NCBI RefSeq assembly: GCF_910592395.1
Contig: NC_088310.1
Span: 4,409,501 to 4,473,500, forward strand
Source of the DNA: Lineus longissimus
Lineage: Eukaryota > Nemertea > Pilidiophora > Heteronemertea > Lineidae
Length of the DNA: 64,000 nt
Direction of reading: 5' to 3'
In this document: positions 241 through 36,784 of the stretch, piece after piece
How the letters are laid out: the number at the start of each line of letters is the position of its first letter
Position numbering within the stretch: position 1 is the stretch's first letter
Notes under the pieces: model-generated
Told to the model about the DNA's origin: nothing
Seen by the model: only the letters and a program-made list of their open reading frames with translations
Databases searched by the model: none
Position numbers and translations under genes: made by a program

Positions 241-3200
241 ACTCAGGAGAATGCTTGGTGGAGACGCTACGTTTGACATAGGTAAATACAATACAATGCA
301 TATCATTTCGCGGCGCTTAAAAAAAAATTAAAATTACATGGCCCAATAGGCTGATTTATGCTTAAACTTCATATGATTCACTTTTGCGAAATTACGGTTA
401 TATTGCATGCAGTTACAATTTTTGTATCCCCATATCATTTCGGTGTAAAATTTTCTGCTTGATCATTGCTTCAATGCATCCTTTCCAGAGTCTGACCCAA
501 CATCTGAGTACTTCGCCGGCACCGATGTTGCTCGAAGTCTGGATGACATCTTGAAGGAGCCATGGGCTAAAAAGGTGAGCAACACGAAATCAAATTCAAA
601 AGACGTATAGCCCGATATATCCGAAAAGGGAATGAAACTGGTTTTGAAGAGAAAAGTCCACGTTAACAATTGTAAAAAGGAAAACAAATGACCAACAGCT
701 CAATGTATCTTGAAGGAGGTACTTGAAGGAGGTACTTCGTATAACCATTGGGGTGTTACAGATTTTTAACAAGTTGGTCATTGCTTCTGAAACCCCTTGC
801 ACCAAATTATCCATTGCAGAAAAAGCCAAGGAATTTCAAGGTTCCAAAGAAAATCAGGTCGAAACTGTTTGTCAGGCAATTCTTCGGCAGTTCCTTTGAA
901 CTTGATGACAAGGAACCAAGTGAGTCCGAGATCCCCAAACCTGATGTGAACAACAATGACGACTGGGCAGTTCAGCTAGAGGTGGAACCCGAAAACGTTC
1001 CAAGTGATGATACAATTCAATTTGTGAACGAACCCATCGTCTTGGAAGTACTGCTACATGCTCCGTTTGAAGGCATTGCAGATCAACCTGAAGTTTTGCA
1101 GAAGGTACTCAATGATACTCCGACCGAGAACGCTGCAGACCCAACTGTCGTAGAGGAAGTACGCAATGACACTCCGACAGAGAATGCTGCAGACCTAGCT
1201 GTCGTTCAAGAAGTACTCGATGATACTCCGACCGAGAACGTTGCAGACCTAGCTGTCGTAGAGGAAGTACGCAATGACCCTCCGACCGAGAATGCTGCAG
1301 ACCCAGCTGTCGTAGAGGAAGTACAAAATGACACTCCGACTGAGAATGCTGCAGACCCAGCTGTCGTAGAGGAAGTACAAAATGACACTCCGACCGAGAA
1401 TGCTGCAGACCCAGCTGTCGTAGAGGAAGTACTCGATGATACTCCGACCGAGAATGCTGCAGACGCAGCTGTCGTTGAAGAAGTACTCGATGACACTCCG
1501 ACCGAGAATGCTGGAGACCTAGCTGTCGTAGAGGTACTCGATGATACTCCGACCGAGAATGCTGCAGACCTAGCTGTCGAAGAGGAAGTACGCAATGACA
1601 CTCCGACCGAGAACACTGCAGACCCAGCTGTCGTAGAGGAAGTACACGATGATACTCCGACCGAGAATGCTGCAGACCTAGCTGTCGTAGAGGAAGTACA
1701 CAATGATACTCCGACCGAGAATGCTGCAGACCCACCTATCGCGGTGGACAGCGGAGCTCCAACTGTTGAAGCAGAAGTTCTAAATGATGCCGACATCATT
1801 TATGCCTCGTATGGACCTCCTACTCGGGCTGCTAGATATTTGCCGGTCGTAGAGGAAGAGGCTGAAGACGCTGAAGAAGCGGAAGAAGCTCAAACTGTTG
1901 AAGCAGAAGTAATAAATGATGCCGACATCATTTATGCCTTGTATGGACCTCCTACTCGGGCTGCTAGATATTTGCCGGTCGTAGAGGAAGAGGCTGAAGA
2001 CGCTGAAGAAGCGGAAGAAGCTGAAGAAGTTGCTAACAGTGTTACGGATAAGGTAAGTTTCACACTAGGTTGGTCTAGAAGGCGATCGCAACATACGCAA
2101 GAATACAAATCAGTGGTATGTCTAGAGACACAGCCAAGATCAACAGTTAGATTCTCTAGCGACTCCCCTGTGGAAAGATAACTCTCAGACTTTGAAAGAA
2201 TGGAGGAGAGAAACATTTATAACTGTTTGCAACAATGTCTATCAACTAAGATGATGCATTATGCATAGATTGATTCAGAAATGGTACAGGTAAATATGAT
2301 CAGTATTTGTCTTGAAAACTGTTATGCCCATGAATTAACTCAGAAATGACACCAACAGATTGACGTAGCTGATACTGTCGACGATGAAGCAGTCGAACAG
2401 GTTCGTACTGAAGAAGTGGTAGCTGAACCAGCCGTACTCGTAGTCGAAGCACTCCAACATGCTCCTACCAAGAACAGCGTAGCTGCAGCATTCGTAGACG
2501 AGACAATCTATCAGATTTCTCAGGACGATGCCACGGTCGAAAAGCCTACACCGGCTGCCAGATATGTACCGGTAAGATGCAGAATTGATTTATCTAATTA
2601 TAACATGGTGATGTCTGTAAGACGTTTGATAGACTCGCATGTCTCTTTAACTTGTTGGATGTCCAATAAACATCTTATAGATATCTTCATTTTATTGTGA
2701 AAAACAATTTTTGAACTTTTTAAAAACACTTTTTGACTTCGAAACAACAAAACAACTCTCTTCTTTTCAGAAAAAGCCTGGAAAGGCTCGGAGAATCTGG
2801 CGGCGTATAAAGAGAACGTTCACTGCTTCTAGACGTGATATAACTTATCAAAGTTGCGATGATGATGCAGAGCTTCTGTATAAGAGGAGCCACAACATCA
2901 GTTGCCAAACTGTCGGGGAGAAGGAGGAACGGGATATTGCCCTCGCGATTGCCGCCAGTCTGGCGCAGGGGAGGCCTCGGAGGAGACTTTCGACAGTCGA
3001 GGAGACTTTCGAAGACATTGAACTCGATGAGGACTGTCAGGTGGTTGATTTCGAAGCTTTAGCCAGCAAGGATAAGGTAAGATTATATGAAGTCGCTGGC
3101 ATGATTTAATTCATTGGATGCCTCCAGATTACTTTACATGCACAGTTAGTAGGGAACAAACTTTGGCTTTGCGACAAAAAACCCTCGTCGAATTGTCGAT

Positions 3201-18664: not shown

Positions 18665-21600
18665 ATGTACCATAGTGCGAGTGATGCGCCCGCGATAAGG
18701 CCGGACTGCGCTACCACAGCTGCGAGTTTCTCCGGTTCTTCTCAAAGTACTTCGAGGTTCAGACGAGGACTGATGAAATCTGCCCGTGTTGGTGAACGAA
18801 GCGACAGTATAGATACCATACTTGAGGAAGATGAGGATAAAACGGAAAAGGAGAAAGAAGTGGTAACTCCGGTGAGTGACAAATCTACCAATACATGTAG
18901 TATCATGAGCATTCCATTCTTTAGTTTCCCCAAAGCAAAACCCCAAGGTACAACCACTGACGAAGACTTTAAGCATTCCTTCCCTTGTATAGGAACGATG
19001 GTTCATTTGAATACCGATTATATAAGGGCGTAGCTCGCTTTCAAGAATACTTCTTTTCCTTCTTCAGGCAAAAGGGGCTGCTACAAGCAAAATGATGGTC
19101 AGTGCTGTGGCGTAAGTAAATTATTTTTTTATGGGCGTAGGCTGGGGATCGGGGGGCGACAAATACCCTTTAAGCGGCATTGTTGAAATGGATCAAGAAA
19201 TTTCTTAAGATGTCATGAAACCTTGAATTTGTTTTTCGAAATCTTGGCATATGATATGCATGATAGTCTTGAACAATGTGTTGTTATCAGGACTTCACTT
19301 TACGTAGGAGTCTTGCATATTATTTCTACTACTCATCGAGCATTTGGCGACTTTCAAAGGTAAAATTCAAAATTTTTGTTTTGCTAGTCGGATGGGCCAA
19401 TTGAAGAGAGCAGCCATAGTGAAGTCGGAATCAGAAGATGGAGAGAAGAGCAAGGAGGCTGAGAAAGAACCGGCGCAAGCGACAGATGACTCAGCGAAAT
19501 CGGTGATGCCGGTTGCGCCGTCTATTGACAAGGCAGAATCGGAAGACGATGAAGAAGACGATGAACTCATGCTCAGTGCTAAGAGGGTGAGTTTGATGAA
19601 CAACCTATATATCAAACAATGTAATGGTATCACCAAGAAGTGTCTTATTATGCTTATTTGTTGTTCTTATGCCTACCGCAAAAATAACAATTATAATTTA
19701 TCGCTTTTCAAGGAAGAAGAAGACACTACTCTGCACTCCAGCGATTTTGTATTCGACCCGGATGGTGATGTTGCTTATTACTGGCTGGTAAGTAACGTAG
19801 GGTTTTGCTTCTCCTTCTTCTTCTTCTTCTTCTTCTTCTTCTTCTTCTTCTTTTTCTTCTTCTACCACAACTATAGTTGTACATTTCTCCTGTCCTCTGG
19901 TACGGCGCCTTGGTTAAGTTACAAGTAGCCTAAACACTTTTGTAAGACAGTGAATACGTCATAGTGAACTGTTTGCTTATAAGCTATCTTGAATCTTGAA
20001 TGGTACTGTGCCTGACCGCGTTTCGAGCTATAAGATGATTTTAAATGAGATTTCGTTATGCGCCTCTATCTTTTCAATGAATATACGGTATATTTTAGCA
20101 ACAATTGAAAAAAGACCTACTGAATTCTTGAATATTATAGTAATCTCATAATTTCCAAAAAGATTTAAGCAAGATTCTGAGGAATAGACGGTGTTTTGAA
20201 AAACTAATTCTACATCAATTCACCGATGTCTTATCACTGCAGTGCATCATAACAGTAGCAGTCATCTATAACTGCTGGATTATCATTCTCCGGATAGGAT
20301 TCACAGAGATGCGAGAAGATGTAAGTGACATAAAATCTTATTTCGTTTAAATCCCATTTATATCGTGACACTTCATCGGGTGTATATCAGACATGAACCA
20401 CTCCTCCAAAGCCGCCTGGCTGGTAGACAGAGCTACTGAAGACATGGTGGTCAACAAAAATGGATGCAATAGCATTCCGCGACGTTACTATTTATAGCTC
20501 ACAAGGTCATTTGAATAAGATAATGATGACGTTTTAGTCACGTGACAGTCGGACATCGACACTTATTTCTACGCATTTGAGCTTATTTCAAAGTCAATTA
20601 TCTTTGACCCTGCATTGTTTTTAGCATGAATGATACCATAGAGTCAGAGAGAGAAATATTCAGAACAATTATGTAGTATTTCCAACACTCGGACATGTGC
20701 CAGATTGAATCTGACTGCCCCAGTTAGAAAGCCTGAATCCATTACGAAACCGCATGTTTGTCCGACATTGCCTGTAATTCAGCGATGGGGAAATAGAGGG
20801 CAGCAGCTGCAGTGACGTCATCTTCGCGGATTGCTATTATATCTCGCAATACTTTTAAATATTGTAATCTGTATAAGATACATGTATAAGTAAAGAATTG
20901 TGTTACCTCTTATGAAAGGGCCAGCCAGCTTTGGCTTATGAGACACTCTTTACTTCCAAACTCCTATCTCTCATGCCAGGCACCTGGCGAGAAGGCAGTT
21001 TGGACCCTATATTTAATAAGCTAGTTGTATATAACACCATCAAACTCCTAGCAGAAAATCCTGACAGAATAACTATAATCTGTGGAAATTCTGGCAAATC
21101 ATACGAATGTGCACTCGGGGCCATCTCTTGGGGCCAATAAATCATAATATAGGCGTTGTGTCACCTTACACGTAACATCACAGAGCACGCCAACAGCATG
21201 TACTCAGATGTCAAAGCCACAACATCGAGAAAAAAACAAGCAGAATATAATTATGAACATGATCGTCAGTACATAGAGTCATATTGAGCCGGAACATTCA
21301 AATCAACAAGTCGTTGCATGGTCGATGCTGAGGATCAAGGGCGGAGTATACAGTCCCCTGGTAATAAATCTCCACCTGTGACCAGAGGGAACACAAACGT
21401 TCTTGATCTGCTTTTCATTCTGTGCACGAATCTTAACATGGCAGCGACTGTTCCTTTGAGCAATGAGACCGGTCTGGATACATCAACTTTGAGAACAGCA
21501 GGCCCCCGCGAGTGTTGGTGGTACAATATCATCGACAACCCGAAAAGTAAGGCTCAAATGCCCGCCTTCATGATCATGGTACCGTTGCAACTATTCGTCT

Positions 21601-24600
21601 CGGTCTCGGGAACCTTCACCAACGGCATCTCCTTTGTGATTCTGGGTCGGGAAATGGATGCTTCCTCGATTCGACTCCTATTCCGTACACTAGCAGTGGT
21701 CGATACATTGGTTCTCCTCGCGTTCCCCTTTCTCTACACGTTTGAAGCCCTCTACAGGTATATGGCTTTCTGGGCCATCGAACCCTATGTCGAGTATTTC
21801 CAATACTACGGAAAATACATTTACGCATTTGCTTGGTGTGTGAACGGCTTGGCAGTACATATCGTGACTATCGTCACAATCGAACGATATATCGCAATTT
21901 GTAAGCCATTACACGCCCCTTCAGTCTGCACAATGCGAAATGCCCGTCTGTCTGTCGCGTTTGCAGCCTGTTTTAACTTCGCACTTCAATATCCTACGAC
22001 CTTCGCAAATACGTTTGGCATGTATTACGGACCCTGTTTTGACAGTTATTCCGACACATGGTTCGCCGACTTCTGGCCAAATGCGTACCAAAGTTTGATA
22101 TTTGAAATATCAATGTACTACATATTCATATCCATAGTCCCCCTGTTACTACTGATTGTCCTGAACGCCCATTTGATCTCATCTTTAAAGAAATCTGCAA
22201 AGCGAGCGTCCCGCTCAAAACAGGACAAAGAATCCACTGAAATAACACGGCGTGTTGTCCTAATCGTCATCATGTTCATGATATTTCAAATGCCAGCCTT
22301 CTTCAGCGACATGTGCCAGAACATCAACGAACGCACGCGCGACGAAACGGGGACATTGTTCAATGAGGAGATGCTAAATGGTTTGAAGATTCCCTGGTAT
22401 TGTTTCACAAGCCTAAACTCCTTTGTCAACTTTTACATCTACATCATAACTGGGAAACGATTCAGGCAGAAGCTCCGTGCAGTTTTCAGTTGCGAGCGAA
22501 GCCAGTAGTTGAAGCAAGCGGCGTATGACAACAGATACTGAAATGACGCGGTTGTCAGGAGCCTGCCGCTGAACAGAAAATGTGGGATAAGAGTTCTGTG
22601 CATCCCCTTTCAGAAGCCGTGCCATAAAGAAATGAAATGAAGTGTATTTTGTTTCTTTATGACTCCACCTTCCATTTACACTGATGTATACTGACTGTTC
22701 ACTTTGATTGTAGGTGCAAACTGTTTCTTTGTCGACGTGTGTCGATCGGCGAAAACGTTTGAACATTTTGAGATGTGGAGGAAGAACTATCTGTACGCTA
22801 CATGAGGTTTCCGCAAGTAGGGTCGTCGGTCCAATCAGATATCCTTATTCTGCATCACTGTGGTCATTGACTAGGAACCAATCAAAAGGCGTCACTGATT
22901 TAGTAAGACTTCCTGTAAAGTTTCTTGCGAGTTGCTTTTATTAAGTCAAAATGGGACACCCCACTGCATCGGAGATTCGGTGCGGAGCATACAATTATAC
23001 TTTTAGGCCAACGTACCTCAAATCCAATGAGGACATTGCAACATTCGTCGCCGCTGTTCCCTTGACTCTTGTTCTAACAGTTATAGGACTGGTGGGAAAT
23101 GGATCATGTTTCATCCTTATTCGAAGGTGGGCGGCACCCTTTCCTGTGGCCCGCTTGCTGACTCAAGCTGTATGTATTTCGGACTCTTTAAACCTTCTCG
23201 CATTCGTCGTGCGTTACACTGTCAGGGAAGTGTACAATGCTTTTGGTGTGTTTCATGATTACATGCAGTTGTATGTCACGTGTTACATCGGCATTGATCT
23301 CCTCAACTGGTGGCTGACAACATTTTCAGTCTACATGGTGGTGATTCTGACAACAGAGAGATACTATTCCGTATGCAAGCAGAAACCAATCTCTACCCAC
23401 AGAGCGTGGATTGCCATGGCCGCTTTAGCCCTGAGCAGTTTCATTTACCATTGCCCTCCTTTGTTCCTCAACGAACCCGCCTATCCCTTTGACCCTTGTG
23501 GCGACAGGTTCAAAGAGCTGCCGGCGGGTTTGGGGATGGACGATGATTGGCTGTACAAGATGGCTTATGGAAAGTTGGCGGTGTATATCTTTTCTTACAT
23601 CGTTCCAATAACAACTATTGGTTTCCTTATCGACGCCACTGGAAAGAATGCGCACGCACCACGTGACAAACAAAATGGAAAGAACAATATGGCCGCCAAT
23701 GAATTGACGAAAAGCATCATGGTTATTGCAATTATTTCAATTGTTTCGAGGGTACCTACCTTTTTGTTCTACGCCTATGATGATTTTCGATACATGAAGG
23801 AAGTGGAACCTTACCTTTATGTTGAACCCGAAACTGTAGTTTGTATCGTTAAGACAACCTTAGTTTTCTCCTTGATAAATACTTCCACAAAATTTTACGT
23901 TTTCGTCATCGTTGGGAAAAGAATTGGGAAGTTTTTTAGTTTTTCTGTGACAGGAATCGCCGAATGAACACTCCGTTCACAGTAACGGCCAATGTCTGTT
24001 AACGCAAAACCGTTTGTTGTCACATAAGTCGTGAAGGATCCAGAAATTTGGTAAAAGGGTGCCGCCACAGCAACCACTTTGCTGCGATCTTGGAAAACGT
24101 GGGAGAAGCATCGACCCTAAAACATAAACAGTTTGACATTCAAGTGCATGTAAATGTACCAAATATATGCGTCTAACGGGCTTAAATTCGACGTAGTTAC
24201 ATGTATTTGCTTCTTGGGGAATAGCGCCCAGTCTTGGAACCACGGGTTCGGCAAGTTGATTTTAGTTACATTTGTTAGTCAGGTTGGGAGGCAGATCTCA
24301 TAAACTTTATTGCATCGATCGCCGACTTAATTATACTTTCAGCCTCTCAACCAGAGGATCTTCTTCTACCTCGACTACGCATGTGATATAGCATATCTCC
24401 TGGACGTTGCTGTCCAACTTCGAACAGCTTTTCTCGAGAACGGTATTCTGGTAGGTCCTTTTACCGGCTTGCTCCTACAGACCAAAATCAAAATCAACAC
24501 GGACCTAAAGCACATAAAAGAAAGGAACAAAGGTGTATCCGTGACATCGTCTATGAGCTCGTTGATGTAGCTTGGGTAGAATTACTGTGAATGGCACTCC

Positions 24601-27600
24601 GGTTTTTCCGACCACTTGATATAGTTTGTAGCTATGGTGTCATAGAAACGTTTTTAATTCAACATTTGCCCTAACTTGTCATGCCAAGGCTGGAGGAACG
24701 TCAGCGTCCGAATGGTTTGATTTCATGCTAATGACCAGCTAGGTCAACAGCTCTTGCTGACAGTCACCCGATCTATGAATCTAGAATGCGGTCGATTTTG
24801 GGTTGGTGTCAACAAAGGTGTTGAATCCCGGTCAAGTTTGAAGAAAAGGACAAGTGCGTGCCCAAAAACGCACATCAAGTTCGACGAAAGCTGAGAGCTG
24901 AGCTCCAGTTGCTTGGTATAATATCTATACCTGTATCCGCGGGGACCGGCCATTTCAGTTTCGCATTTATAAATTCCTGTCCTATACAGGTTGATGAATA
25001 CATTCGCAGCTCAAACAGATTTAATACATTATGCTCGTGTTCTGTAGGGCATTTGTACTTTAGACCTGTCCCAGCTGCCTATGTACTACATTCGTTAGAT
25101 ATTGAAATTCAATATTCTGAGTCATACAAGTAGCTTATTACGTTATTTTGCTCCTTACAAATTGTACTACGCAGTTGAAGTATTCAGGCCTAGCCCATTA
25201 CACGGTTCACTGTCTTCAAACAAAGCCCGCTCACCCTAAGCTGAAATTCCCATTGTTCTACCGTCAAAGGATTATCTGCGCAAATTTGAAAACGACGATC
25301 CCACGAAACACCTTTCAAGGTGGTCGTTAGGCCTAAACCCGCGAGGGCAAATAAACATACTGTACGCTACTTGGCTAGATTAGCTCACGAATGGATTCAT
25401 GATTGTAAAACAGGTTGAGCTTTATGAATCCGACACGGACCTTTTAAGTTCGCGGATGGCGTATCATTACTCACTTTGAAGATGACGGAAGGCTGGAAGA
25501 AAGAACCACGCATGCAACTGCACGGTATCCACGCATTTTAATTTCATTACAAAGTCCCTTGACTTTGCAAGATACATCATGTTATTTGCCTTTCGTTTGT
25601 AGGTGTTAGACCCAGTGAAATTAAGTCGCAATTACAGAAGAAAGCCAGAATTTGTTAAAGATATGATTTCGATTGCTCCAGTTGGAACTATAGCCACATT
25701 CATAGCTGGTGAGATTTTCGTTCTTTAAGGGTATTCAATTCTTTTGTCACATTTATGAAATTTTTCATCCACTCCGAGTCATTACAGGTAAATGTACATA
25801 GACAATGCATCTATACCTTATTGCACAAATGGTGTTGAAGTGCAAAACACTGAAGTAAATGTAGTCATGCTAAGTGCATTCTTAAGCATAAGACGGAGCT
25901 AAAAATTATCTACAACAGGCATATATTTGATGAAATGCCTATCACTCTAGTTGAGCAGTGATGGTACAAATCGAGATCCGGTACAATAGAAGCGTGTTGA
26001 TGAATATTCATACAAATTATCATCCTGACTCTCATGCGTTCGAGCTCTACAAAGTGATTTAGCGATCTCAAAACATTGCGGGTCAAGATGACAAATATAG
26101 CCGACGAGAAAGACGAATTTCCATCTTTTCAAATCAATTTCCGTTTCAGAACTGACAGACAGCGCTATTGTGGACATCGGTGAAATAGACGAATGTGAGT
26201 ATTAAGCTGAATTCGTGTACATTTTTATGAGTGTGCGCAAACTCTTATCGGCAACGCCATAGCCTTATCATGAGAGCAATATCCGAATCGAAGTAGCCGT
26301 AAATATAATATCACCACAAACTATCAATTTCCTATCTAAATAGCGGCCGTGGTAGGAGAGGCAGAACGGCAGTGAGTGATGAAAATGCTAGCAAAAACAC
26401 AGTAGTGACGTTCTACATGTGTATGTTTATGAAACAAAGGGTTTACATGCACAGGAGAGACCAATGAACATCATCATCGCAAGGGAGACCAATCACTCTA
26501 CACTGCCTCACACCGGCTTTCACTTTGTAGACAGTGACCATTTAATACGTGTTGCCTCACCTAGTAAAAGTGCACCTTCGTGAAATCTGCAGGACCGGTC
26601 CTTGTGATTAAGAATTTTGCCTTTCCGGTTCAGCGATACGATCGAAAATCTCACAAACTACCTCTGCAACTTCCACTGCCAAAGCAATTGCACAAAGCAT
26701 TAGTCACAAACTACCACTGCAACTACCACTGCCAAAGCAATTGTACAAAGCATTGGTCACAAACTACCACTGCAACTACCACTGCCAAAGCAATTGCACA
26801 AAGCATTAGTCACAAACTACCACTGCAAAAGCAATTGTACAAAGCATTAGTCACAAACTACCACTGCAACTTCCACTGCCAAAGCAATTGCACAAAGCAT
26901 TAGTCACAAACTACCACTGCAACTACCACTGCCAAAGCAATTGTACAAAGCATTAGTCACAAACTACCACTGCAACGGCCACTGCCAAAGCAATTGCACA
27001 AAGCATTAGACACGAGAGAATTGTTGTTTTAAAGTCTAAATAACAATCACTGTGTTGCAGCCGACATCTACGTGCCCATCGTCCGACTCCCACGCCTCAT
27101 TAAGTTCCACACTATGACCAAGTGTTTCGAGGTGACGGACAGTCGAACCAGCAACCCCAATACCGTGAGAGCTTTCAAACTCACTCTCTACCTGTCCGTG
27201 GTTATACATTGGATCGCCTGTTTCTACTACATGGTATCAAGTGTAAGTGTTGATTAAGAATATTTTGTAATCGAACATACCACATGCACAAATACGAAGA
27301 ATTTGTGTTCAAAATACGTCGTAAGTCAGTATTGCCATGGAGTGATGCACGACCTCACTATAAGATGTAAATGCTATTTCGTACGATGGTTAGAGTACCC
27401 ATGAAATGGGTACATGACCAGTTCTAATAATCTTCAAGACGTTGGCGTAGGCCTCCGATGGAGAAGAAAAAGAAGAAGTAAGAGAGTAGAGATAACTTAT
27501 GGCTGATTCTCGATTTCAGTATGAAGGCCTTGGTATCAATGACTGGGTATTTCCGAATAAAACAGAAGATCAACATTTTCGAAGGTATGAGTAAATCCTA

Positions 27601-30600
27601 TTTTCGAAGGTATGAGTAAATCCTGTTGAGAGAACTACAATGTATTTTCCAAGCTGCTTTGATCCAACAATCATTCAGATAACAGTAGACCAAGTTCAAG
27701 ATACACTATTTAAGGTGAAACTACATGTGTAGTGACTCCATTTTGCAAATCAAAGAAACACCAGAACTCATCCAAAACACACAAAATTGTAAAAGTATTA
27801 ATCGGAAGACATTGATATCTTTGGTCTGCATGGCCTCCGAACAGTTAGAGTCCGATTTTTGGTGTTTGATAGAGTTTTGGTGTGCCTGAGATTGGCAAAA
27901 TGGAGTCACTTTAGCTTCACTTCAATTTTTCAACCATTTTTTTTCTGAGGTTGAGACTTATTTCAACCCCCGGTGTTAACCTTGCCATTATCTCCTTTGA
28001 CCTTTTGCAGAAGGTACGTGTTATGCATGTACTGGTCAATGATGACACTGACAACCATTGGAGAAACTCCAGTACCACGATCAGATCTCGTAAGTTACTA
28101 TGGTCACGTGGGCACAACCAAAATGGTGGCGGCAAGCAATATTTTGGAGATGGCATCATGAAGAAAAATACCGATTATCATTATTTTCTGCTTGTGTATA
28201 GCCTAATTTGAGGAAATGTTATCTGCTAGAGTATTGGATCTGACAATGAAATGCGTGATTTTGGTGCCGGAGTTCTCCAATTCAATGGCGTTTCTTTTTG
28301 TTTTTTCCCTTCCAAGGTTGCTTGCCGCCTCTAAGATTTTGGTTATTTTCTTTCAGTAAATACATCCGTTCACTTTACTGGTCGACAATGACATTGACAA
28401 CAATCGGAGGCACAGCCAATCCAGAAACAACACTTGTGAGTAACTTTTTCTGCTCTTTACAGCATCATCAGAATAGTGTACTACAAAATGTGATGTTCCC
28501 CGTACGCCGGTGTATGAACTCCCGATAATCAGCACGAAGAACTGTTGTCCTCTTTGTCAAGATAGACGATGTTAAATTCTATGAACCAAGGTCTCCATCC
28601 TCTAACCGTCGTCGATCTTGATCAGTTGGCCACAGCGCTTCGTAGTCACTGACTTTTCCGCTTGTCCTTTCTTCCAGGAATACGTTTTCACCGGCGTCAC
28701 CTTTCTCATCGGAGTGTTCGTGTTCGCTGCCGTTGTGGGAAATGTCGGAGACGTCATCAGTAACATGAACGCAGCCAGGCAGGATTTCATGGCGAGGTAG
28801 GAAACATGAAAAACATTCGACCCTCAGTTTTTCAACTGTTGGACTTGGGCTTTAAGCTTCGTTTTGAAATTTTGAAAGTGTCAAATCGCGTCGCACCATC
28901 CCGGCGACCAGTTTCTATTGAAGTACAGAGGATTTCCGCTAGGGTCGTCGTCTGGGTAGTAGGCGTAGTGATAGTCTGCCGTCAGCTCAAGAAGACGCTT
29001 GTACATGACGTTCACGGTGAAGGGGTGCTGCTCAGAGAGGTCATGGTGTTCAGTGGGATCACGCCCAAGGTCAAACAGCTGACGCTTGCTCGGTTCAGGG
29101 TGAATTTCTCCCGCGTCTTCATCCCTGGCGAACCTTACCTCATTGTCGTCTGCTAGCGTTGGTGCGGGTGTCCAACCATCACGGTCTGCCGGACCAGGTT
29201 TGCCGACAATCAGTTTCAAGTTCCCCACCCTGATGGCGGCGTTCTCGTCGATGTCGTCGATGTTGTAGACGAATTCCTTCCTCGCACCAGGATGGTAAGG
29301 CGTTGTCAGACTCTCGAGCTGGTTCATTCCATCCAGGGTCAGGTTCTCAGGCGAGTGACCCGCGACGGCTAGGAGAGTTGGGAACCAATCTACCGCATGG
29401 AAGAGCCCACGGAAAATCCTTCCAATCGTTTTCTTGAAGATGCCTCCGCTGACAAACGCAGCACCTCTGGTCCCTCCTTCCCAAAGTGTGTATTTCTGTC
29501 CCCGCAAAGGCCAGTTGTTACCTCCATAAAGCGTCCGGCCACCATTATCAGTTGTGAAGACAATGACCGTGTCATCCAACATCCCTTTCAAGGCCAATGC
29601 GTGCGTGATATTCCCAATCGCTTCATCTAACGCGGACACCATACCAGAAAATGCTCGTCGTGTCCTGTCATTTATTTTGTGATATGGATATTCAAATCTT
29701 TCCGGTACTTGCACTGGGGAATGGACTGCTTGGAATGGTAGATACAAGAACAGAGGCTTCCCTGTATCATGATTTGTGATGATCTGCCTTGCTCGTTTGG
29801 CAAATAGGAATGTTGAGTAGGTCCCCCTAGCGCCGTCGTCTGGTTCAGAATTGTCCCGGAAATCGTAACCATCGATTGACGACCCATACTGCCGGTCGTG
29901 AAGGAAGTAGTCTTCCGCTCCGTTATAATAACCATAATGAGAATTGAACCCGCGATGCAGAGGCGTGTAGGAAAGGTTACAGAATCCCAAGTGCCATTTC
30001 CCAACGATGTGAGTAGCGTAGCCAACTTCTTTCAGTTTCTCGGGAAGAAATGTGAAATTGGTCGGGACACCCTTTGGCTGTAGAGGCCTGATGACTCGAT
30101 GCTGCATGCCAGAACGGAACGGGTACATCCCAGTCATGAACGCTGTCCTCGACGGGGAACAAAGTGGCTGCACATACGAATTCTCCAATATGACGCCTTG
30201 TTTTGCGAGTGTGTCCAGGTTTGGAGTGAGCATGTCCGGGTTGTGCCATCCGACGTCGTTCCATCCGAGATCGTCTGCGACTATAAAGAGGATATTTGGT
30301 CTTTTCGCTCCGACCACATGAGAAAGGATGACCAGGAACACTGGAAAGGCCCTTGAAAATTGCCGCAGTTGCATCTTTGGTTGAATACTTGCTTAGATTC
30401 TCAGGACCAAACACAGTCACAACAAGAAAAATCAGTGCTGGCGCTTTGCACAATCATGTCCTATTGGTAGGACAAAATATAACCATGATCAAAACAATGA
30501 TCTTATCTGTGACCTTGCTATTTCAACTCAATGTCGTTGCTATTTCAACTTAATCTCGTAGGTTATTTACGTCCGATAGTACATATACATGTACTTATCT

Positions 30601-33600
30601 CAAATGATAGAATAGGCCAAAACACAGATATGTTGGTTTTCAATTACTTGTCCAAGAGGTGAGAAAAGCAGAAGAAAATCCCATGCTGACCCATTAAATT
30701 GCTCGTATGTATACAATGTATATTTATTTTCCCTTTGTAGGATGGACCAGATTAAGTTCTACATGGATCATCGTAGAATTCCTGAAGTCCTGCAAAACAG
30801 AGTTAAACGATGGGCTGACTACAGCTGGACTCGGTGCGTTAAGGCTGAAATTTAATTGGACAATAGACTAATCAAACTACATGTATCATTCTTAAGAGTT
30901 TATCCGCGAGCGTCCCTATTTATAAAACAAAACAATTCCGTTCGTCAGAGTAAATCTAAACCCACGCACATTTTGACACCGAGACAACGAATATCCATGG
31001 CGATCCAGCCAATCGCTTTGAAATCTTTGAACGCTACGACAATTTGTATTTTCATTCCTTATGAGATTTCTCGAGGTGCCAATTTACTATTTCAGCACTC
31101 AAGCAATAGACGAAATCAGCATGTTAGAGATGTTGCCAGAGCGTCTCCGCTCTGAGATCGCCATCCATGTTCACCTCGAGACGCTCAAGAAGGTGAAAAT
31201 CTTTGAAGAATGCGAAGAGGGGCTTCTCCATGAATTGGTGCTGAAGTTGCGGTCACAGATCTATTCGCCCGGGGACCATATCTGCAGGACCGGCGAGATT
31301 GGCAGGGAGATGTACATCATAAACCATGGGAAAGTCGAGGTGAGGAGTTTCTTAGAAGAGCGTAGCTACAGAATGGTCCATTTAGTAAATGTTATTGAGA
31401 TAATGGGCCGAAGGCCAAACTTACTTTTGTTCGAAAATCAGAACAGCACCATTATCATTAAACAGGTATAGCTAAATTATACTCTGAAATATGTGTACAT
31501 TGCATCTCCTTCCATATTCCTGTCACTTCCAGATATTGGTAAACAGTCCTAGTCAACCATCTGGTAAAATGGTGGTTGCTACTCTCTCGGAGGGGAACTA
31601 TTTTGGCGAGATCAGCTTATTGAAATTGGACGCTGGTCAAAACAAGTAAGTGCTCTGAACTCAACCTCCAAAATTAGTATGTTATATCGCAAAGTTTAGT
31701 ACAAAGAAACAATCTTCAATTAAACTCTGAACTTTAGCAGCAAAATCAGGTCTGGTTGTGCCAGCATCTCCTGTCGATCAGGTCTGGTTGCGACAGCATA
31801 TGCTGTATTATCACGTCTGGTTGTGACAGCATATGCTGTATTATCAGGTCTGGTTGTGGCAGTATGTTATGGTATGGTTGTTGCAGTATCTGCTGTCTAT
31901 CAGGTCTGGTGTTCTGATTTCATGCAATCCCTTTATGAAAATGATCAGGTATTCACCACGTGAAAATGAGACACATTTTTCCTGGGTGGAGACAAGGTCC
32001 ACCCTGTAGAAACATGGTGCACTACGTTGGGTGAGTACACATCTAGATCAAAGTCTTTCAAATAATTATTTGAAAGACACTGGTTGCGTTTAGTATTGCC
32101 TGCATCATGTATATCATATTTTTTTATCAAACACCAAGATAACTCTTTTGTGGTTACAGCAAAGTTCATTTGAATTTTTATATTTCAGGCGAACCGCAGA
32201 TGTGCGCTCAGTGGGTTACTCTGAGTTGCTATGTTTGTCCAGGAAAGAATTGATGTCGGTAAGTTTAGGTATTTAATGAATCGGTGTTATATACCGATGA
32301 AGACAAATATATCTTGAGGGATTAAGGTATATGGTTCTATAGAGACCATGGTCGTCAATACCTCTGAGATCGACAGCACACAAAAGAATCCTTTGTCTGC
32401 CGAAAACTCTACCCTCGGATATTTCAAATGTTTACACCGGCCATATGGGGGATGGTACCATAAAGTATATGGTTATTGAAAACTTAAAAAAGAGCAATAT
32501 ATTAATTAAAGGCAATTATTGATATCTAACACTTTTAAAATTTCAGGCTCTTGTCGAATACCCAGATGCTAAAGATATTCTGGAAGCTCAGGCCAGAGAA
32601 AGGTAAATTCATACCCGTGCAGTACATAAAACCTTAGTTTAGTCAACAGGAAAAATATGACCTTGTCAGTAACAATCATGTACCGTCCATTACTATTTGA
32701 CTCTCATCCTTCTGTTGCTGACAATCATTCATTGTCGTCCGTCAGTGTATACATAAACCGATAGCTACTTGACTGGAATGCCCCATTCTGACAATCCAAC
32801 GTACATGTACATCGTAGTTTTAGCAATTCTGCTCCATTCGCAACTTTCTTCGAGCAGTGTTATGTGGGACTTCCTGTCAGGTGACAGGTCATTTCACTTG
32901 TTGACCAATCACAAGCCCAGTAATAGTCATGGCCATGCGTGCTACGCCGAAACATGGATGATAGATGTCTGCTGATTGGCTTATAACTGACTGGAAGCAG
33001 TGCCAAATCGCTGCTTGAGAAAAGTGGTGAATTCGTCTGCACAGTGTCGAAAATATCGTTAAAATGGTTGCTTGGTCTCATCAATTTGTTTCTCCCAAAA
33101 GAATGCAGAAGAACAAGGAGGTGCGTCGAACCAGTACGGCAGATTCCACATCGGGTGACAAGCCATCATCAAGCTCTACATCTCCAACAACTGAAGCCCC
33201 AAAACCACCGCCAAAACCCGCGGAGGAGAAGCCAGTTCCGCCGCCACCGCCGCCGCCACTTCCGGCGCTCATGAAGGGCAAGAAGGACACCTTGTGGCAA
33301 CTGCTGAAATCGGATGACTTTCAGCGCGCTGCTGGGCCAGAGAGGCAACTTGGTGAGAAAAAAAATTGAATAATTCATTGTCCTTACTTCAGGCCTGAGA
33401 ATGATGGATTACTTAGTTGACTCCCAGATTGATTTATTAGTTAGAAAACATTGTAAGGTGATAGAGAGTGTACAGGAATGCCATGAACATAATCTATCAT
33501 CATAATCGATCCGACATTCAAAACGGTTCTTAAAACATCCCTCTTCAAGGAACATGACGGGACAGTGCTTGAACGGTTCAACAACTGAGTAGCGCTTTAT

Positions 33601-34744
33601 AATTTGGTGACTTGTGTTTCAACGACTGTCAGCTGCATGCCTCCTCTTTTGTAGGTAAAGAGCTTTCACAACTAAAGGAGGTCGTCAAAGACATGCGGTC
33701 CTTTGATAGCCAGATGACAAAGGAAAGAGTACAACAACTATCGGAAAAGGTATGGATCTGCTGTATTGATAAGAATATTTAAGTATCGTGGTTATATCAG
33801 GTTTCTGTCGTACCTCAAGCTCGCGATACCACTAAAGAGAGGCTATAGGTAGGAGCCGGGTTGATCAGATTAAGTTGTAGGAAGCCGTCAATAGAAGTCT
33901 CTTTCATCTCAAAGTACACCGAAACTTTTCGCACTTGTACGAGGATTATAGTTCGTGCTGAACCAAACACGACCAAGTACCCTTGCAATCCAGCTCTATT
34001 TATTCGCAAAAATAATACAAAAAAACCTCGAAAATTGGCAGTTTACTGTTTACAAATGAATTACATGTACAATGTTCCTCATTTTCATTTTCTCAGTGCG
34101 ACGATCTTAAGAAGAAGTTAAAGCAAAGGAACGTAGAGCTGCGGGACGCTATACAAAGAATCAACGAACTGGAGACCTTCTTGCTCCTCCCAGAAAACGG
34201 CCCAAGATACACAAACAAGTTGAACGGTCTCGCCTCCGTGAGAACGCGCCGGTACCCAAGGAACAACAACAGAAAGACAAACGGCCATGTTGACCTTTTG
34301 ATTGCTGCTGCTGTGGATTCCACTCGACGCAGCAGCACCGGAACTGTCAACGTGGAGGAGAATGGTAATAGCTACACTGACCAGGATAACTCTTTGACGT
34401 ACCTTGGTCCTCCGAGTATCAATCAGACAAATGGTGAGCTTTCCGACTCCGAATTGAATGATATCAACGTTGCAAATGACTCTTCGCAGGGGCGCCGGAC
34501 CCGCAATGTTGCCGTCCCTGGGATCTCGATCAACGGGATCTTGGAGCAGGAGCCGGCGGACGTGACGCTGGAGCAAGGCGTGGCAGAGGACACTGACCCA
34601 GACTCGAACAGTGAGATCTCCCCGGGCAGTTCGGGGATGTTTGGTTATGACTGTGCTAACATTGCTAGTATTTTGACCGACACGTCTAGGAATAATAGCG
34701 AAAGTTCCAGTGGCTCTTCGTCCGAAGATAGTGACGGCGGTTAG
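18665..34744 (+). CDS. CNGA: Cyclic-nucleotide-gated cation channel, A-subunit type
   Basis: Nineteen exons join to 943 residues using either pore exon: 18665-18871, 19068-19111, 19388-19586, 19713-19787, 20243-20320, 24343-24450, 25603-25708, 27061-27242, 27520-27584, pore exon 28011-28089 or 28357-28435, 28678-28796, 30741-30833, 31096-31339, 31533-31645, 32189-32258, 32547-32602, 33102-33352, 33655-33749, 34097-34744. An acidic N-terminus leads to S1 (~172-195), S3 with [14 protein letters not shown], a short S4 (VRLPRLIKF), the pore (355-381), S6 and C-linker ([29 protein letters not shown]), and a cyclic-nucleotide domain with [11 protein letters not shown] and [18 protein letters not shown]. 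The Thr of that RTA motif favours cGMP in vertebrate CNGA. A proline run and a coiled coil (~729-750) resembling the CNGA leucine-zipper region follow. The family conducts Na+ and Ca2+ in sensory cells. Two introns contain other genes. Confidence 0.92.
19813..19864. repeat. (TTC)n microsatellite in a channel intron
   Basis: An almost uninterrupted TTC/TCC run about 50 bp long, starting 25 bp after the donor of the fourth channel exon. It makes a long pyrimidine tract on the sense strand. Confidence 0.9.
21318..22508 (+). CDS. Intronless class A GPCR nested in the channel gene
   Basis: A single exon of 396 residues inside the 20321-24342 intron of the channel gene, same strand. Seven hydrophobic segments are visible. 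TM3 ends with [17 protein letters not shown] (ERY in place of DRY). TM6 is followed by [13 protein letters not shown]7 ends [20 protein letters not shown], where NFYIY replaces NPxxY. These features match FMRFamide-receptor-like invertebrate peptide GPCRs. A later Met at about 21438 would give a shorter N-terminus and leave NETGL as an early glycosylation site. It has no introns, so it could be a retrogene-derived or ancestrally intronless family member. The ligand is unknown. Confidence 0.88.
   Translation: MVDAEDQGRSIQSPGNKSPPVTRGNTNVLDLLFILCTNLNMAATVPLSNETGLDTSTLRTAGPRECWWYNIIDNPKSKAQMPAFMIMVPLQLFVSVSGTFTNGISFVILGREMDASSIRLLFRTLAVVDTLVLLAFPFLYTFEALYRYMAFWAIEPYVEYFQYYGKYIYAFAWCVNGLAVHIVTIVTIERYIAICKPLHAPSVCTMRNARLSVAFAACFNFALQYPTTFANTFGMYYGPCFDSYSDTWFADFWPNAYQSLIFEISMYYIFISIVPLLLLIVLNAHLISSLKKSAKRASRSKQDKESTEITRRVVLIVIMFMIFQMPAFFSDMCQNINERTRDETGTLFNEEMLNGLKIPWYCFTSLNSFVNFYIYIITGKRFRQKLRAVFSCERSQ
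22951..23967 (+). CDS. Second intronless class A GPCR nested in the channel gene
   Basis: A single exon of 338 residues, 442 bp after the previous GPCR, in the same channel intron and on the same strand. TM1 carries [17 protein letters not shown]3 ends with [13 protein letters not shown]7 ends with [16 protein letters not shown], so NPxxY is again replaced. NYTF near the N-terminus is a possible glycosylation site. It resembles the same peptide-receptor class as its neighbour but is clearly diverged, so the pair may be an old tandem duplication. Intracellular loop 3 is short (about 25 residues) and the C-tail is very short. Confidence 0.87.
   Translation: MGHPTASEIRCGAYNYTFRPTYLKSNEDIATFVAAVPLTLVLTVIGLVGNGSCFILIRRWAAPFPVARLLTQAVCISDSLNLLAFVVRYTVREVYNAFGVFHDYMQLYVTCYIGIDLLNWWLTTFSVYMVVILTTERYYSVCKQKPISTHRAWIAMAALALSSFIYHCPPLFLNEPAYPFDPCGDRFKELPAGLGMDDDWLYKMAYGKLAVYIFSYIVPITTIGFLIDATGKNAHAPRDKQNGKNNMAANELTKSIMVIAIISIVSRVPTFLFYAYDDFRYMKEVEPYLYVEPETVVCIVKTTLVFSLINTSTKFYVFVIVGKRIGKFFSFSVTGIAE
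26150..26194 (+). other. Candidate symmetrical cassette exon of the channel (S3-S4 linker)
   Basis: 45 nt flanked by a good acceptor (CCGTTTCAG|A) and donor (GAAT|GTGAGT). The flanking exons meet in phase 1, and this exon enters and leaves in phase 1 with an open frame. Inclusion would add 15 residues, [15 protein letters not shown], and change the junction Ala to Ser, just before [15 protein letters not shown] (S4). The insert is acidic. It could be constitutive, optional or chance. Without it the linker length already matches vertebrate CNGA, so it is not needed. Confidence 0.45.
26651..27010. repeat. 53-bp minisatellite in a channel intron
   Basis: About seven units, each containing TCACAAACTACCACTGCAAC and AAAGCAATTGYACAAAGCATTAG. 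Start positions (26651, 26704, 26757, 26810, 26851, 26904, 26957) show a 53-bp period, with one 41-bp unit that lost 12 bp. The array ends about 50 bp before the acceptor of the S4 exon. Confidence 0.92.
27576..27625 (+). repeat. 25-bp tandem duplication copying a splice donor
   Basis: TTTTCGAAGGTATGAGTAAA begins at 27576 and again at 27601, with the two copies differing at their last base. The first copy spans the donor of the exon before the pore (exon end 27584). The second copy recreates the same donor 25 nt later. Use of the downstream donor would read TAT GAG TAA, an immediate stop. Confidence 0.85.
27711..27924. repeat. Foldback element just upstream of the pore exons
   Basis: Left arm about 27711-27780 and right arm about 27861-27924 are reverse complements over roughly 65 bp with mismatches and small gaps. 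The best core is AGTGACTCCATTTTGC against its exact complement. The element ends about 86 bp before the first pore exon. It could be a MITE or an RNA stem that affects splicing. Confidence 0.7.
28011..28089 (+). other. Pore exon A of the channel (filter with Glu)
   Basis: 79 nt, entering after two bases of a codon and leaving on a codon boundary. Acceptor CCTTTTGCAG, donor CTC|GTAAGT. It encodes the pore helix and filter [16 protein letters not shown]. The filter Glu corresponds to CNGA1 E363, which binds external Ca2+ and Mg2+. It is more diverged than pore exon B in the residues just before YWS (RRYVLCM versus KYxxSL in other CNGAs). Confidence 0.85.
28357..28435 (+). other. Pore exon B of the channel (filter with Gly)
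   Basis: 79 nt with the same phases as pore exon A. Acceptor TTATTTTCTTTCAG, donor CTT|GTGAGT. It encodes [20 protein letters not shown] and then ANPETTL. The filter Glu is replaced by Gly, as in vertebrate CNGB subunits (TIGG). The first two bases after the acceptor are TA followed by A, so splicing it after exon A (codon boundary) would create TAA at once. The two must be alternatives. Confidence 0.85.
28881..30374 (-). CDS. Intronless arylsulfatase (ARSB/ARSI/ARSJ-like), nested antisense in the channel gene
   Basis: One exon of 497 residues inside the 28797-30740 channel intron, opposite strand. Its stop is about 85 bp from the donor of the S6 exon. A signal peptide (~1-23) precedes [19 protein letters not shown] with metal-binding D34/D35. 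C72 in [11 protein letters not shown] is the residue converted to formylglycine. K126 and H128 (GKWHLG), H218 (AVHSPVQVP), D276/N277 (TTDNGG) and K294 complete the site. All catalytic residues are present, so it is probably active. Members hydrolyse sulfate esters of glycosaminoglycans in lysosomes or outside the cell. The length fits the arylsulfatase B group (about 530 residues in humans). Potential N-glycosylation at NFT, NLS, NIT and NLT sites. Lack of introns suggests retroposition. Confidence 0.92.
   Translation of the reverse strand: MQLRQFSRAFPVFLVILSHVVGAKRPNILFIVADDLGWNDVGWHNPDMLTPNLDTLAKQGVILENSYVQPLCSPSRTAFMTGMYPFRSGMQHRVIRPLQPKGVPTNFTFLPEKLKEVGYATHIVGKWHLGFCNLSYTPLHRGFNSHYGYYNGAEDYFLHDRQYGSSIDGYDFRDNSEPDDGARGTYSTFLFAKRARQIITNHDTGKPLFLYLPFQAVHSPVQVPERFEYPYHKINDRTRRAFSGMVSALDEAIGNITHALALKGMLDDTVIVFTTDNGGRTLYGGNNWPLRGQKYTLWEGGTRGAAFVSGGIFKKTIGRIFRGLFHAVDWFPTLLAVAGHSPENLTLDGMNQLESLTTPYHPGARKEFVYNIDDIDENAAIRVGNLKLIVGKPGPADRDGWTPAPTLADDNEVRFARDEDAGEIHPEPSKRQLFDLGRDPTEHHDLSEQHPFTVNVMYKRLLELTADYHYAYYPDDDPSGNPLYFNRNWSPGWCDAI
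31747..31910. repeat. ~33-bp imperfect tandem repeat in a channel intron
   Basis: Four to five degenerate copies of TCAGGTCTGGTTGTGACAGC followed by ATATGCTGTATTA, at about 31777, 31810 and 31845 among others. It lies between two exons of the cyclic-nucleotide domain. No coding function. Confidence 0.8.
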
Positions 34745-35683
34745 ATATCAGTATTCAAAAAGACGAAAAACGCTGCTATAGGTCGGAGTAAACCTCTTGA
34801 CGGTTTTAGACTTTCTGACACGAATAGGTAAATGTCAATCCATGTAGAAGTAAAATATAACGATGGAATAACTCAATTAGATCTCAATACAACTGATAAA
34901 GATCAAACTAGTTTCTTAAGATTCAGTGTAACCTTCTGGATCAAATTAACATGATTTGAAGTAATTTAGCGATATCCCGAAGATACAGGTTGTCAAACTG
35001 CGTGTACACAACGGCATTTTAAGAATTTTCATTCAATACGTATTTACAAAATCTAAAATTTCTGAATTCGAATACAAATTTGAACAATTCAAGGAGCGGC
35101 GTACATGATAATGTAGGCCATTAATCAATCTCGTTACAGAACGATTGTATTCATATGGGTTGTTATAAATAGTCATATCGATAAACTATTATCAGTGTCG
35201 TAAGAGACATAGCGTCCAGTAGTCTACATGTCAATCTAGGTCAAAATATCTCAAGTTGACCACATCGAGGAACGAGAGAGGACTTGGTAGATGAAATGTT
35301 TGAAGGTAAGTCTTTCGTTATTCGCTCACCAGCTCCACACATCTTGACCATCAGGTTTTGGATCCACTCCGCCGACCTGGAAAGGGGAGGCTACGGATGG
35401 AGTACCTCTGATGGTTCAGAATGGCTCCAGATGGTAGGATGGTGTCTACATGTCGACATTTACATCTGCCTCCTGGCAGACACATGGGAATGGCAGCTAC
35501 ATAATATAATGGCATGTTGGTCATTTGCAATATAGGCACCTCTACCACGAAATCGAAACAAATGCCAGGCCGGAATATCTCCGCGTATTGTATGTACTAT
35601 AGACCTCACAAGATATGTTAATTTTGCGCCCTGCGGATTTTGAACCAATTTCCAACCTCCCTTGCAGATCCTGAGGTCACGAA
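34745..35683. other. Intergenic region and likely 5' UTR of the dioxygenase gene
   Basis: No supported coding exon. A splice acceptor (CCTTGCAG ending 35667) lies 16 bp before the dioxygenase ATG, so a 5' UTR intron is likely. A matching donor (TGAAG|GTAAGT) occurs at 35305. Splicing these two would bring a short upstream ORF starting at 35291 in front of the main ATG in another frame. Confidence 0.5.
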
Positions 35684-36784
35684 ATGGCACAGCTGCTTAC
35701 ACTACGTGGTCGCTTATTCTCAAAACCGTCGATAGTAAAATGCTTTCAGAACTGTAAGGCCATCGTAATAGAACCAGAAAGGCGTTTTTCTTCATCTGTA
35801 AACCTTGCTGGGGTGACATCCTCCGTCAGATTACTCCGCGTCCAGCGCCCTCGATGTCTGCCGAAACGATGCAAGGCAACTCTTGCGCAAGATCCGCGCT
35901 TGCAATATACCGTCAAACCTGATGATTTCCAGGCCACGGACATGAACGATGTTGAGGATATTGTAAAGGAAGTCACAGAAGGCCAGGGGTATCTCTTGCT
36001 CCCTCAGGTTTTCTCACCAGAAGACATCGCGCATGCTAGAGATGTCATTTACTACTTGATCAAAACGGAAGGCCAACGGGCGACACATTTTCAGGGAAGT
36101 GACGAGTCGAGACATGACCTTCAAGCGCGGACATGGAATTTGCTGAATAAGGGAATGATCTTTGAGAAGATGGTGCAACATCGGAAGATCTTGGCCATCG
36201 TGGAACGCATTTTGGGAGATGATCTTCAGCTCGGGAGTATAGCCTCGAATACTCTCTTCCCAGGCGCCTCTGGCCAAGAGCCGCACATCGACTATCCATA
36301 TTGGGATTTCTATGAACGGAAACATTGGCCAGCAAACCCAAAAGTGGCGAACGTCCCATTCCATATGAACATGCAGGTTACCGTTTTGCTGGATGACTTC
36401 ACGATAGAAAATGGTGCTTCCGCTGTCATTCCCTACTCCCAGCGGAAGTGCGAATACCCACATGACCAGGCGGCGTTTTATAAACATTGCGTGCAGACGC
36501 CAGGCAAAGCTGGTGACGTCGTCATCTTCCCCGGCCTCATCCAACATTGTGCCATGCCCAACAAGAGCGATTCCTCCAGATGTGGACTTCTATTGCAATA
36601 CCTCCCAAAATATATTCGACCAATGGAGGACATCAAACGAGCTTTGGACGCAGACGTTCTGAAACGTGTCTCACCGCGCCTGCGCAAGCTCCTCCTGCTT
36701 GATTATCCCTATCCGGCCATTTTGGATGAAGTCGAGGCAATCAATTCGGAAGGATCGAAATCGGACTTTGACTGGAAATACTGA
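35684..36784 (+). CDS. Phytanoyl-CoA dioxygenase (PhyH) family protein, intronless coding region
   Basis: A single open frame of 366 residues. The first ~70 residues are basic, Ser-rich and lack acidic residues at the start (MAQLLTLRGRLFSKPSIVK), which suggests mitochondrial import. The double-stranded beta-helix follows, with iron ligands H201 and D203 (PHIDYPYWDFYERKHWP) and H288 (LIQHCAMPNKS), and R299 as the likely 2-oxoglutarate anchor. VLLDDFTIENGASAVIPYS and GKAGDVVIFPG are typical PhyH core strands. The family uses Fe(II), O2 and 2-oxoglutarate to hydroxylate substrates. The substrate here is unknown; it does not look like the peroxisomal PHYH ortholog (no PTS2 seen). An in-frame TGA at 35672 supports the ATG chosen. 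Confidence 0.85.
   Translation: MAQLLTLRGRLFSKPSIVKCFQNCKAIVIEPERRFSSSVNLAGVTSSVRLLRVQRPRCLPKRCKATLAQDPRLQYTVKPDDFQATDMNDVEDIVKEVTEGQGYLLLPQVFSPEDIAHARDVIYYLIKTEGQRATHFQGSDESRHDLQARTWNLLNKGMIFEKMVQHRKILAIVERILGDDLQLGSIASNTLFPGASGQEPHIDYPYWDFYERKHWPANPKVANVPFHMNMQVTVLLDDFTIENGASAVIPYSQRKCEYPHDQAAFYKHCVQTPGKAGDVVIFPGLIQHCAMPNKSDSSRCGLLLQYLPKYIRPMEDIKRALDADVLKRVSPRLRKLLLLDYPYPAILDEVEAINSEGSKSDFDWKY

Follow-up and report, generated by a model that had tools for sequence, protein, structure and literature searches.

Two tandem versions of the pore exon lie within a single CNG channel gene in the 64-kb window (the whole stretch of DNA analysed here), one placing a glutamate and the other a glycine in the selectivity filter. 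From the sequence, a mutually exclusive filter switch is probable, and we consider it likely overall that an old duplication of the pore exon gave rise to mutually exclusive A and B filter cassettes in this gene, with the intron stem and the physiology proposed below.

Two alternative pore exons and their reading frame

Pore exon A (28011–28089, + strand), recognized by its TIGE filter motif, the gene model and tblastn, and pore exon B (28357–28435, + strand), recognized by its TIGG motif, joining tests and tblastn, are each 79 nt long and separated by 267 nt. Both are preceded by AG; GTAAGT follows A and GTGAGT follows B. Each completes a codon split with the common upstream exon, which supplies two of its bases and runs from S5 to the pore turret (27520–27584, + strand, donor after 27584; gene model and joining tests), and each stops at a codon boundary before the common downstream exon at 28678, thereby encoding 27 residues. 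The original prediction had described such a pair, 267 nt apart and with equal phases, and it is borne out by coordinates, frame and tblastn, as is its contrast between a filter Glu in exon A and a Gly in exon B. The four productive junctions it listed (27584/28011, 28089/28678, 27584/28357 and 28435/28678) all fit our gene model.

A and B share 46 of 79 bases and, in the peptides after the split codon, 14 of 26 residues. In tblastn searches of the window, A as query recovered B (E = 4.5e-6), B recovered A (7.4e-7), and a CNGA3 pore piece recovered both (A, 1.5e-8; B, 1.1e-6); apart from the common downstream exon, the next matches to these three queries had E values of 0.13 or worse. No third pore exon was found in the window by a six-frame motif scan and tblastn. 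The pore carrying exon B scored best against CNGA3 (97 bits), then CNGA1 (94 bits), with CNGB at 47–58 bits.

Joining A to B makes the first codon of B a TAA stop, for either start of exon A, and skipping both exons shifts the frame and leads to a stop about 30 residues on. Because inclusion of both stops translation and omission of both shifts the frame, only transcripts with one of the exons would make a channel, and mutually exclusive use of A and B is strongly implied. The frame logic can be read directly from the sequence, and from it we infer that cells use exactly one exon. Mutually exclusive exons have been predicted from similar length, conservation of splice sites and frame, and homology (PMC3228551); A and B agree in length, splice pattern, frame and peptide homology.

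Donor scores were 7.8 for A and 8.5 for B, both mid-range among the gene's own 18 donors (4.6 to 10.3). Against the gene's own 18 acceptors (−6.1 to 12.7), that of B was strong (10.9) and that of A was low (5.1), ranking between the fourth and fifth lowest. Exon A has a tandem acceptor, with AG at 28009–28010 and 28012–28013, giving starts at 28011 or 28014; the first makes the two exons equal in length, and the second would remove one Arg before the pore helix and keep the frame. Two simple causes of exclusivity were rejected: incompatibility with the minor spliceosome, since both donors are of the ordinary GTAAGT/GTGAGT kind, and an A–B intron that is by itself too short, since it measures 267 nt whereas the gene model includes an intron of 126 nt.

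The host gene and its family

Both exons belong to a metazoan CNG channel gene (18665–34744, + strand) that looks complete, with 20 coding exons that have AG/GT borders and join in frame, and with matches in PDB and Pfam. The model encodes 958 residues with either pore exon, the frame remaining open to the stop. It was obtained by a search over splice-site choices up to 4 nt from hand-placed exon borders, which left four variants, distinguished by the borders of exons 3 and 4 and by where exon A starts; the choice of start ATG is a guess. In Pfam the protein matched PF00520 (Ion_trans, 81.4 bits) and PF00027 (cNMP_binding, 58.5 bits), both over the cut-off. Alignment to CNGA3 and CNGA1 placed the S4–S5 exon at 27061–27242 (+ strand). 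The common downstream exon (28678–28796, + strand) carries S6, with the hinge Gly, the gate Phe and Val, and a Gly at the arginine-gate position. Four exons at 31096–32602 (+ strand; gene model, PDB alignment and Pfam) encode the end of the C-linker and the cyclic-nucleotide-binding domain, and the last two exons (33655–34744, + strand; gene model, Pfam and PDB) encode a coil, in which no CLZ was matched, followed by a long tail. A 45-nt exon at 26150–26194, in the S3–S4 stretch, could be optional, as its skipping leaves the frame open to the normal stop.

Among the best 60 of 83 PDB matches to a 464-residue core of the protein, CNGA1/2/3 scored 430–443 bits (CNGA3 and CNGA1 best, at 441–443), CNGA4 344 bits, CNGB 279–294 bits and HCN1 up to 159 bits. 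The common S6 stretch was identical to CNGA1 at 25 of 37 positions, to CNGA3 at 23, to CNGB3 at 15 and to CNGB1 at 12, and of its 18 diagnostic columns 12 were CNGA-like, three CNGB-like and three neither. In these comparisons CNGA comes ahead of both CNGB and HCN, and we place the gene in the CNGA clade in the wide sense.

Four subfamilies, CNGC, CNGD, CNGE and CNGF, are sisters of CNGA, and a CLZ domain has been recognized in classical CNGA alone (PMC9803222). The whole protein had no CLZ match in Pfam at E values up to 0.001, two C-terminal pieces, searched at E up to 10, had no CLZ among their listed families (14 for one and 25 of 28 for the other), and the C-terminal coil matched no CNG chain in PDB. 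As a positive control, a CNGA CLZ piece scored 62.6 bits with PF16526 in the same library. Given the working control and the missing CLZ match, we do not file the gene as a classical CNGA; it may be of the CNGC, CNGD or CNGF type, and a much diverged zipper may be present in the coil despite the lack of a match. The label 'CNGA' in the original prediction is thus right for the clade in the wide sense and uncertain for classical CNGA. Most of the 271 non-vertebrate metazoans counted in PMC9803222 carry one CNGB gene, so this genome may well have one too, and a CNGB1-like sequence occurs in a pond snail transcriptome (PMC11556747). A reading based on a single gene does not imply that a B subunit is absent. 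The viral contigs searched held no relatives, and the genome contigs searched held one locus, from Bdellovibrionota, with 36% identity over part of the C-linker and binding domain, too distant to help.

Other reading frames and repeats lie in and around the gene. Within the large CNG intron that separates S1 from S2 are two long uninterrupted reading frames, one at 21288–22508 (+ strand) that Pfam assigns to the rhodopsin-family GPCRs and one at 22945–23967 (+ strand) that has no Pfam match and looks GPCR-like. An uninterrupted sulfatase reading frame (28881–30392, − strand; Pfam 174.7 bits) occupies the intron right after the S6 exon on the opposite strand, and an uninterrupted reading frame of the PhyH (phytanoyl-CoA dioxygenase) family lies just downstream of the CNG gene (35675–36784, + strand). 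By eye, the intron before the S4–S5 exon shows repeat units around 'cacaaactaccactgcaac' and 'caaagcaattg' (26660–27010), and a reading frame at 745–2181 (+ strand) has tandem repeats mostly of 18 residues (such as NDTPTENAADPAVVEEVQ).

An inverted repeat between the exons

The A–B intron contains a 12-bp perfect inverted repeat (28128–28139/28318–28329), extended by one of 9 bp (28116–28124/28336–28344). Inverted repeats and duplex energy together define a 5′ arm at 28116–28139 and a 3′ arm at 28318–28344 (both + strand), so that the stem begins 26 nt past the donor of A and finishes 12 nt before B. The duplex between the intron ends was predicted at −42.1 kcal/mol (matched by 0 of 300 shuffles) and was the strongest among the 19 of the gene's 20 introns that were long enough to be tested, the other 18 giving −7.7 to −18.6. 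The arms alone gave −41.8 kcal/mol (0 of 60 shuffles), and both repeats had pair probabilities of 0.53–0.98 in the ensemble of 27585–28677. Folding of the whole A–B intron was moderately unusual only (z = −2.11; 4 of 200 shuffles as good).

Across 21 pairings, with 60 shuffles each, the two arms together were the only combination to reach 0 of 60. The upstream intron paired in a mildly unusual way with exon B (3/60), the 5′ arm (4/60) and the loop (5/60). Its pairing with the 3′ arm was ordinary (34/60), as were those of the downstream intron with the 5′ arm (36/60) and the 3′ arm (23/60). The intron before exon A also has a foldback of its own, separate from the A–B stem, in which 55 nt are 76% complementary (27731–27785/27856–27910).

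A simple consensus scan of the region 12–60 nt before exon B returned a single candidate branch point, TCTAAGA, 23 nt upstream, with its adenine at 28334 (+ strand) in a 3-nt bulge of the stem (28333–28335). From this predicted structure we infer that the stem would hide the branch point of B and hinder joining of A to B.

In the most serious competing account, to which we give slightly less than an even chance, the stem plays no part in splicing and is either an old inverted-repeat element or a foldback that formed by chance. Duplexes of this strength do arise elsewhere: 4 of 3000 random 267-nt places reached −42.1 kcal/mol, and six of 12,747 scanned positions did so, three of them here and three at two other places in the 64 kb with equal or stronger end-to-end duplexes (starts 3416, 3436 and 47086). 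The separate 55-nt foldback in the upstream intron points the same way. On the other side, the stem stands alone among the 19 introns tested and overlies the candidate branch-point region of exon B, and neither arm has another copy in the 64 kb, allowing up to ~20% substitutions. On this last result, an inverted-repeat transposon family was also rejected as the source of the stem.

Predicted effects on the pore

In vertebrates, TIGE marks CNGA and TIGG marks CNGB (PMC10761061), and the PDB sequences likewise confirm the Gly that had been attributed to the vertebrate CNGB filter. Nine pore-exon columns separate CNGA1/3 from CNGB1/3. At these, exon B has the CNGB state twice (349 Arg and 363 Gly), the CNGA state six times and neither once, and exon A has the CNGB state once, the CNGA state five times and neither three times. 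The position of the CNGB pore-helix Lys/Arg (K841/R403) is Met in both exons; that of the CNGB S6 arginine gate (R880/R442) is Gly in the common downstream exon, which retains the hinge and gate residues of CNGA3. The diagnostic columns, the missing pore-helix charge and the missing arginine gate exclude exon B as a CNGB module, and judged by its residues exon B is a charge-neutralised alpha-type pore, not a beta pore. What remains of the proposed splicing switch between an A-like and a B-like filter is two exons that differ as Glu and Gly; the B-like part needs correcting, since exon B is CNGB-like at only two of nine columns.

The exons also differ in the pore helix. Exon A carries Met at each of the three positions that correspond to CNGA1 L351, T355 and L356, whereas exon B does so at L356 only. 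Seen at the residue level, A pairs a canonical filter with a changed pore helix, and B pairs a neutral filter with a near-canonical helix.

When the filter Glu is neutralised, Ca2+ current and block are nearly abolished, inward current is lower and the current rectifies outwardly (PMC10761061). The CNGA1 mutants E363A, T355A/C, L356A/C and T364A/C inactivate, and E363C gives no current (PMC5758780); the accessible portions of these two papers contained no E363G data. Because E363C gave no current, B homomers might not conduct. By analogy with CNGA1, B is expected to show less divalent block and less Ca2+ entry, possibly with inactivation, and A/B mixtures to be graded. The original prediction had the Glu bind Ca2+; this needs qualifying, as CNGA1 structures place Ca2+ below the Glu, which nevertheless attracts the ion and helps to coordinate it (PMC10761061).

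Both exons could instead be used for a different end, with gating (pore helix and inactivation) as the property that matters and not divalent selectivity. By analogy, the Met residues of exon A at the T355 and L356 positions may indeed change gating as well, and the contrast of Met at L351, T355 and L356 in A with L356 alone in B falls where CNGA1 mutants inactivate (PMC5758780). Those mutants carry Ala or Cys, not Met, the effects on gating and on selectivity can coexist, and neutralisation of the filter Glu acts very strongly on Ca2+ current and block (PMC10761061). We regard gating as the main purpose of the pair as unlikely.

Unproductive joins and coding constraint

A repeat search showed that the end of the upstream exon and its donor are duplicated in tandem as two perfect 25-nt copies (27575–27624, + strand; 100% identical), which may reflect a recent duplication, an allele or an assembly artefact. 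The second donor (after 27609) equals the first in sequence and score, and its use lengthens the transcript by 25 nt and results in an in-frame stop for both pore exons. The exon pair could thus be seen mainly as an off switch, in which double inclusion or the 27609 donor yields unproductive mRNA and so sets the amount of channel; the halt of A–B joining exactly at the first codon of B and the stop reached through an equal second donor would both suit such a function. It would not need both exons to be kept as good coding sequence, as they are, since a pure poison exon has no use for this; the predicted stem would oppose A–B joining, and the 25-nt duplication is probably recent because its copies are identical. 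We therefore rate an off switch as improbable.

A and B differ at the first codon position in 9 of 26 codons, at the second in 8 and at the third in 15, a third-position excess that is borderline over only 26 codons (P = 0.05), with dN of 0.42 and dS of 1.8. Exon A is identical to CNGA3 at 15 of 26 residues and exon B at 17. When A was mutated neutrally to 33 differences, 14/26 identity to A was kept in 9 of 20,000 runs and the 17/26 identity of B to CNGA3 was reached in none; in the reverse test, starting from B, the corresponding counts were 15 and 0 of 20,000. This control is approximate, as it loads every change onto one exon. On these comparisons both exons look constrained. Ungapped, the 30-nt flanks of A and B match at just 13/30 and 10/30 positions, for which reason the duplication looks old. 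That exon B, or A, is a dead duplicate no longer spliced in is the least probable of the alternatives: at some positions common to CNGA1 and CNGA3, each exon has a residue other than that of vertebrate CNGA, but neither has an in-frame stop, both have usable splice sites, and the neutral-decay control, approximate as it is, disfavours decay of either.

Discussion

We propose that an old tandem duplication of the pore exon produced two mutually exclusive cassettes in a gene of the CNGA clade in the wide sense. Isoform A would carry the glutamate of the filter ring and isoform B a glycine in its place, the pore helix and S6 being alpha-type otherwise. Transcripts with both exons or neither would meet early stops, leaving those with a single exon to make channels. 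The predicted stem would overlie the branch-point region of B and draw the donor of A near the acceptor of B, which would hinder A-to-B joining and favour A; B would be used when the stem opens or fails to form. Extrapolating from work on CNGA1, B subunits would strip negative charge from the mouth of the filter, so that Ca2+ entry, divalent block and inward current would all weaken, and would perhaps add inactivation; mixed A/B tetramers could give graded intermediates. A bolder version, in which splicing alone sets 0 to 4 filter glutamates, and with them in graded fashion Ca2+ entry, divalent block and inactivation, in this CLZ-less CNG gene and the intron stem over the branch point of B is the splice switch, is one we put forward tentatively and think rather less likely than not to be the full account.

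If true, control of the filter Glu by splicing would be a second evolutionary route to a contrast that vertebrates obtain from separate subunit genes, and a parallel, in a different channel class, to the E/K pore exons of NALCN. It would also provide a natural E-to-G pair on one backbone with which to test filter charge against Ca2+ entry, block and inactivation. The exchange of pore exons is known in other channels and, within the literature searched, is apparently new for CNG channels: the accessible text on CNG splicing and filter variants, drawn mostly from outside subscription journals, described no alternative CNG pore exon. The CNGC–CNGF subfamilies are channels of the CNGA clade, as is the window gene, whose protein has no CLZ match; the available main text of the paper that describes them does not use the words 'exon' or 'pore' (PMC9803222).

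In their splicing, the exons resemble docking-site/selector systems (PMC6071210), which also combine tandem duplicated exons with strong intronic base-pairing. They differ in that both arms lie here inside the A–B intron, and pairing with the flanking introns is mildly unusual at most.

Among alternative pores, exon 12 of the invertebrate CaV3 T-type channels is likewise an alternative exon of the pore region, reported to alter ion passage and block, but the channel has four domains and the exon covers its extracellular D2L5 loop (PMC7382465). Vertebrate CNGA/CNGB heteromers combine TIGE with TIGG, as A and B could, and there the Gly cuts the charge at the filter mouth and weakens Ca2+ block (PMC10761061); unlike the two exons, they are products of separate genes, and CNGB brings a pore-helix Lys/Arg and an S6 arginine gate that are both absent here. 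The closest likeness is to NALCN, in which exons 15a/15b and 31a/31b exchange E for K at a single filter residue across many invertebrate groups (PMC3557258). There, too, the tandem P-loop exons are mutually exclusive, the upstream one encoding Glu and the downstream one lacking that negative charge. NALCN is a four-domain 24TM channel in which one of four filter residues changes from E to K (PMC3557258); the window protein has one ion-transport stretch and a cyclic-nucleotide-binding domain, and is a single-domain CNG subunit in which E changes to G, so that a tetramer could have as many as four residues exchanged and A and B could mix. By analogy, the gene would work like a NALCN-type alternative pore without being a member of that family.
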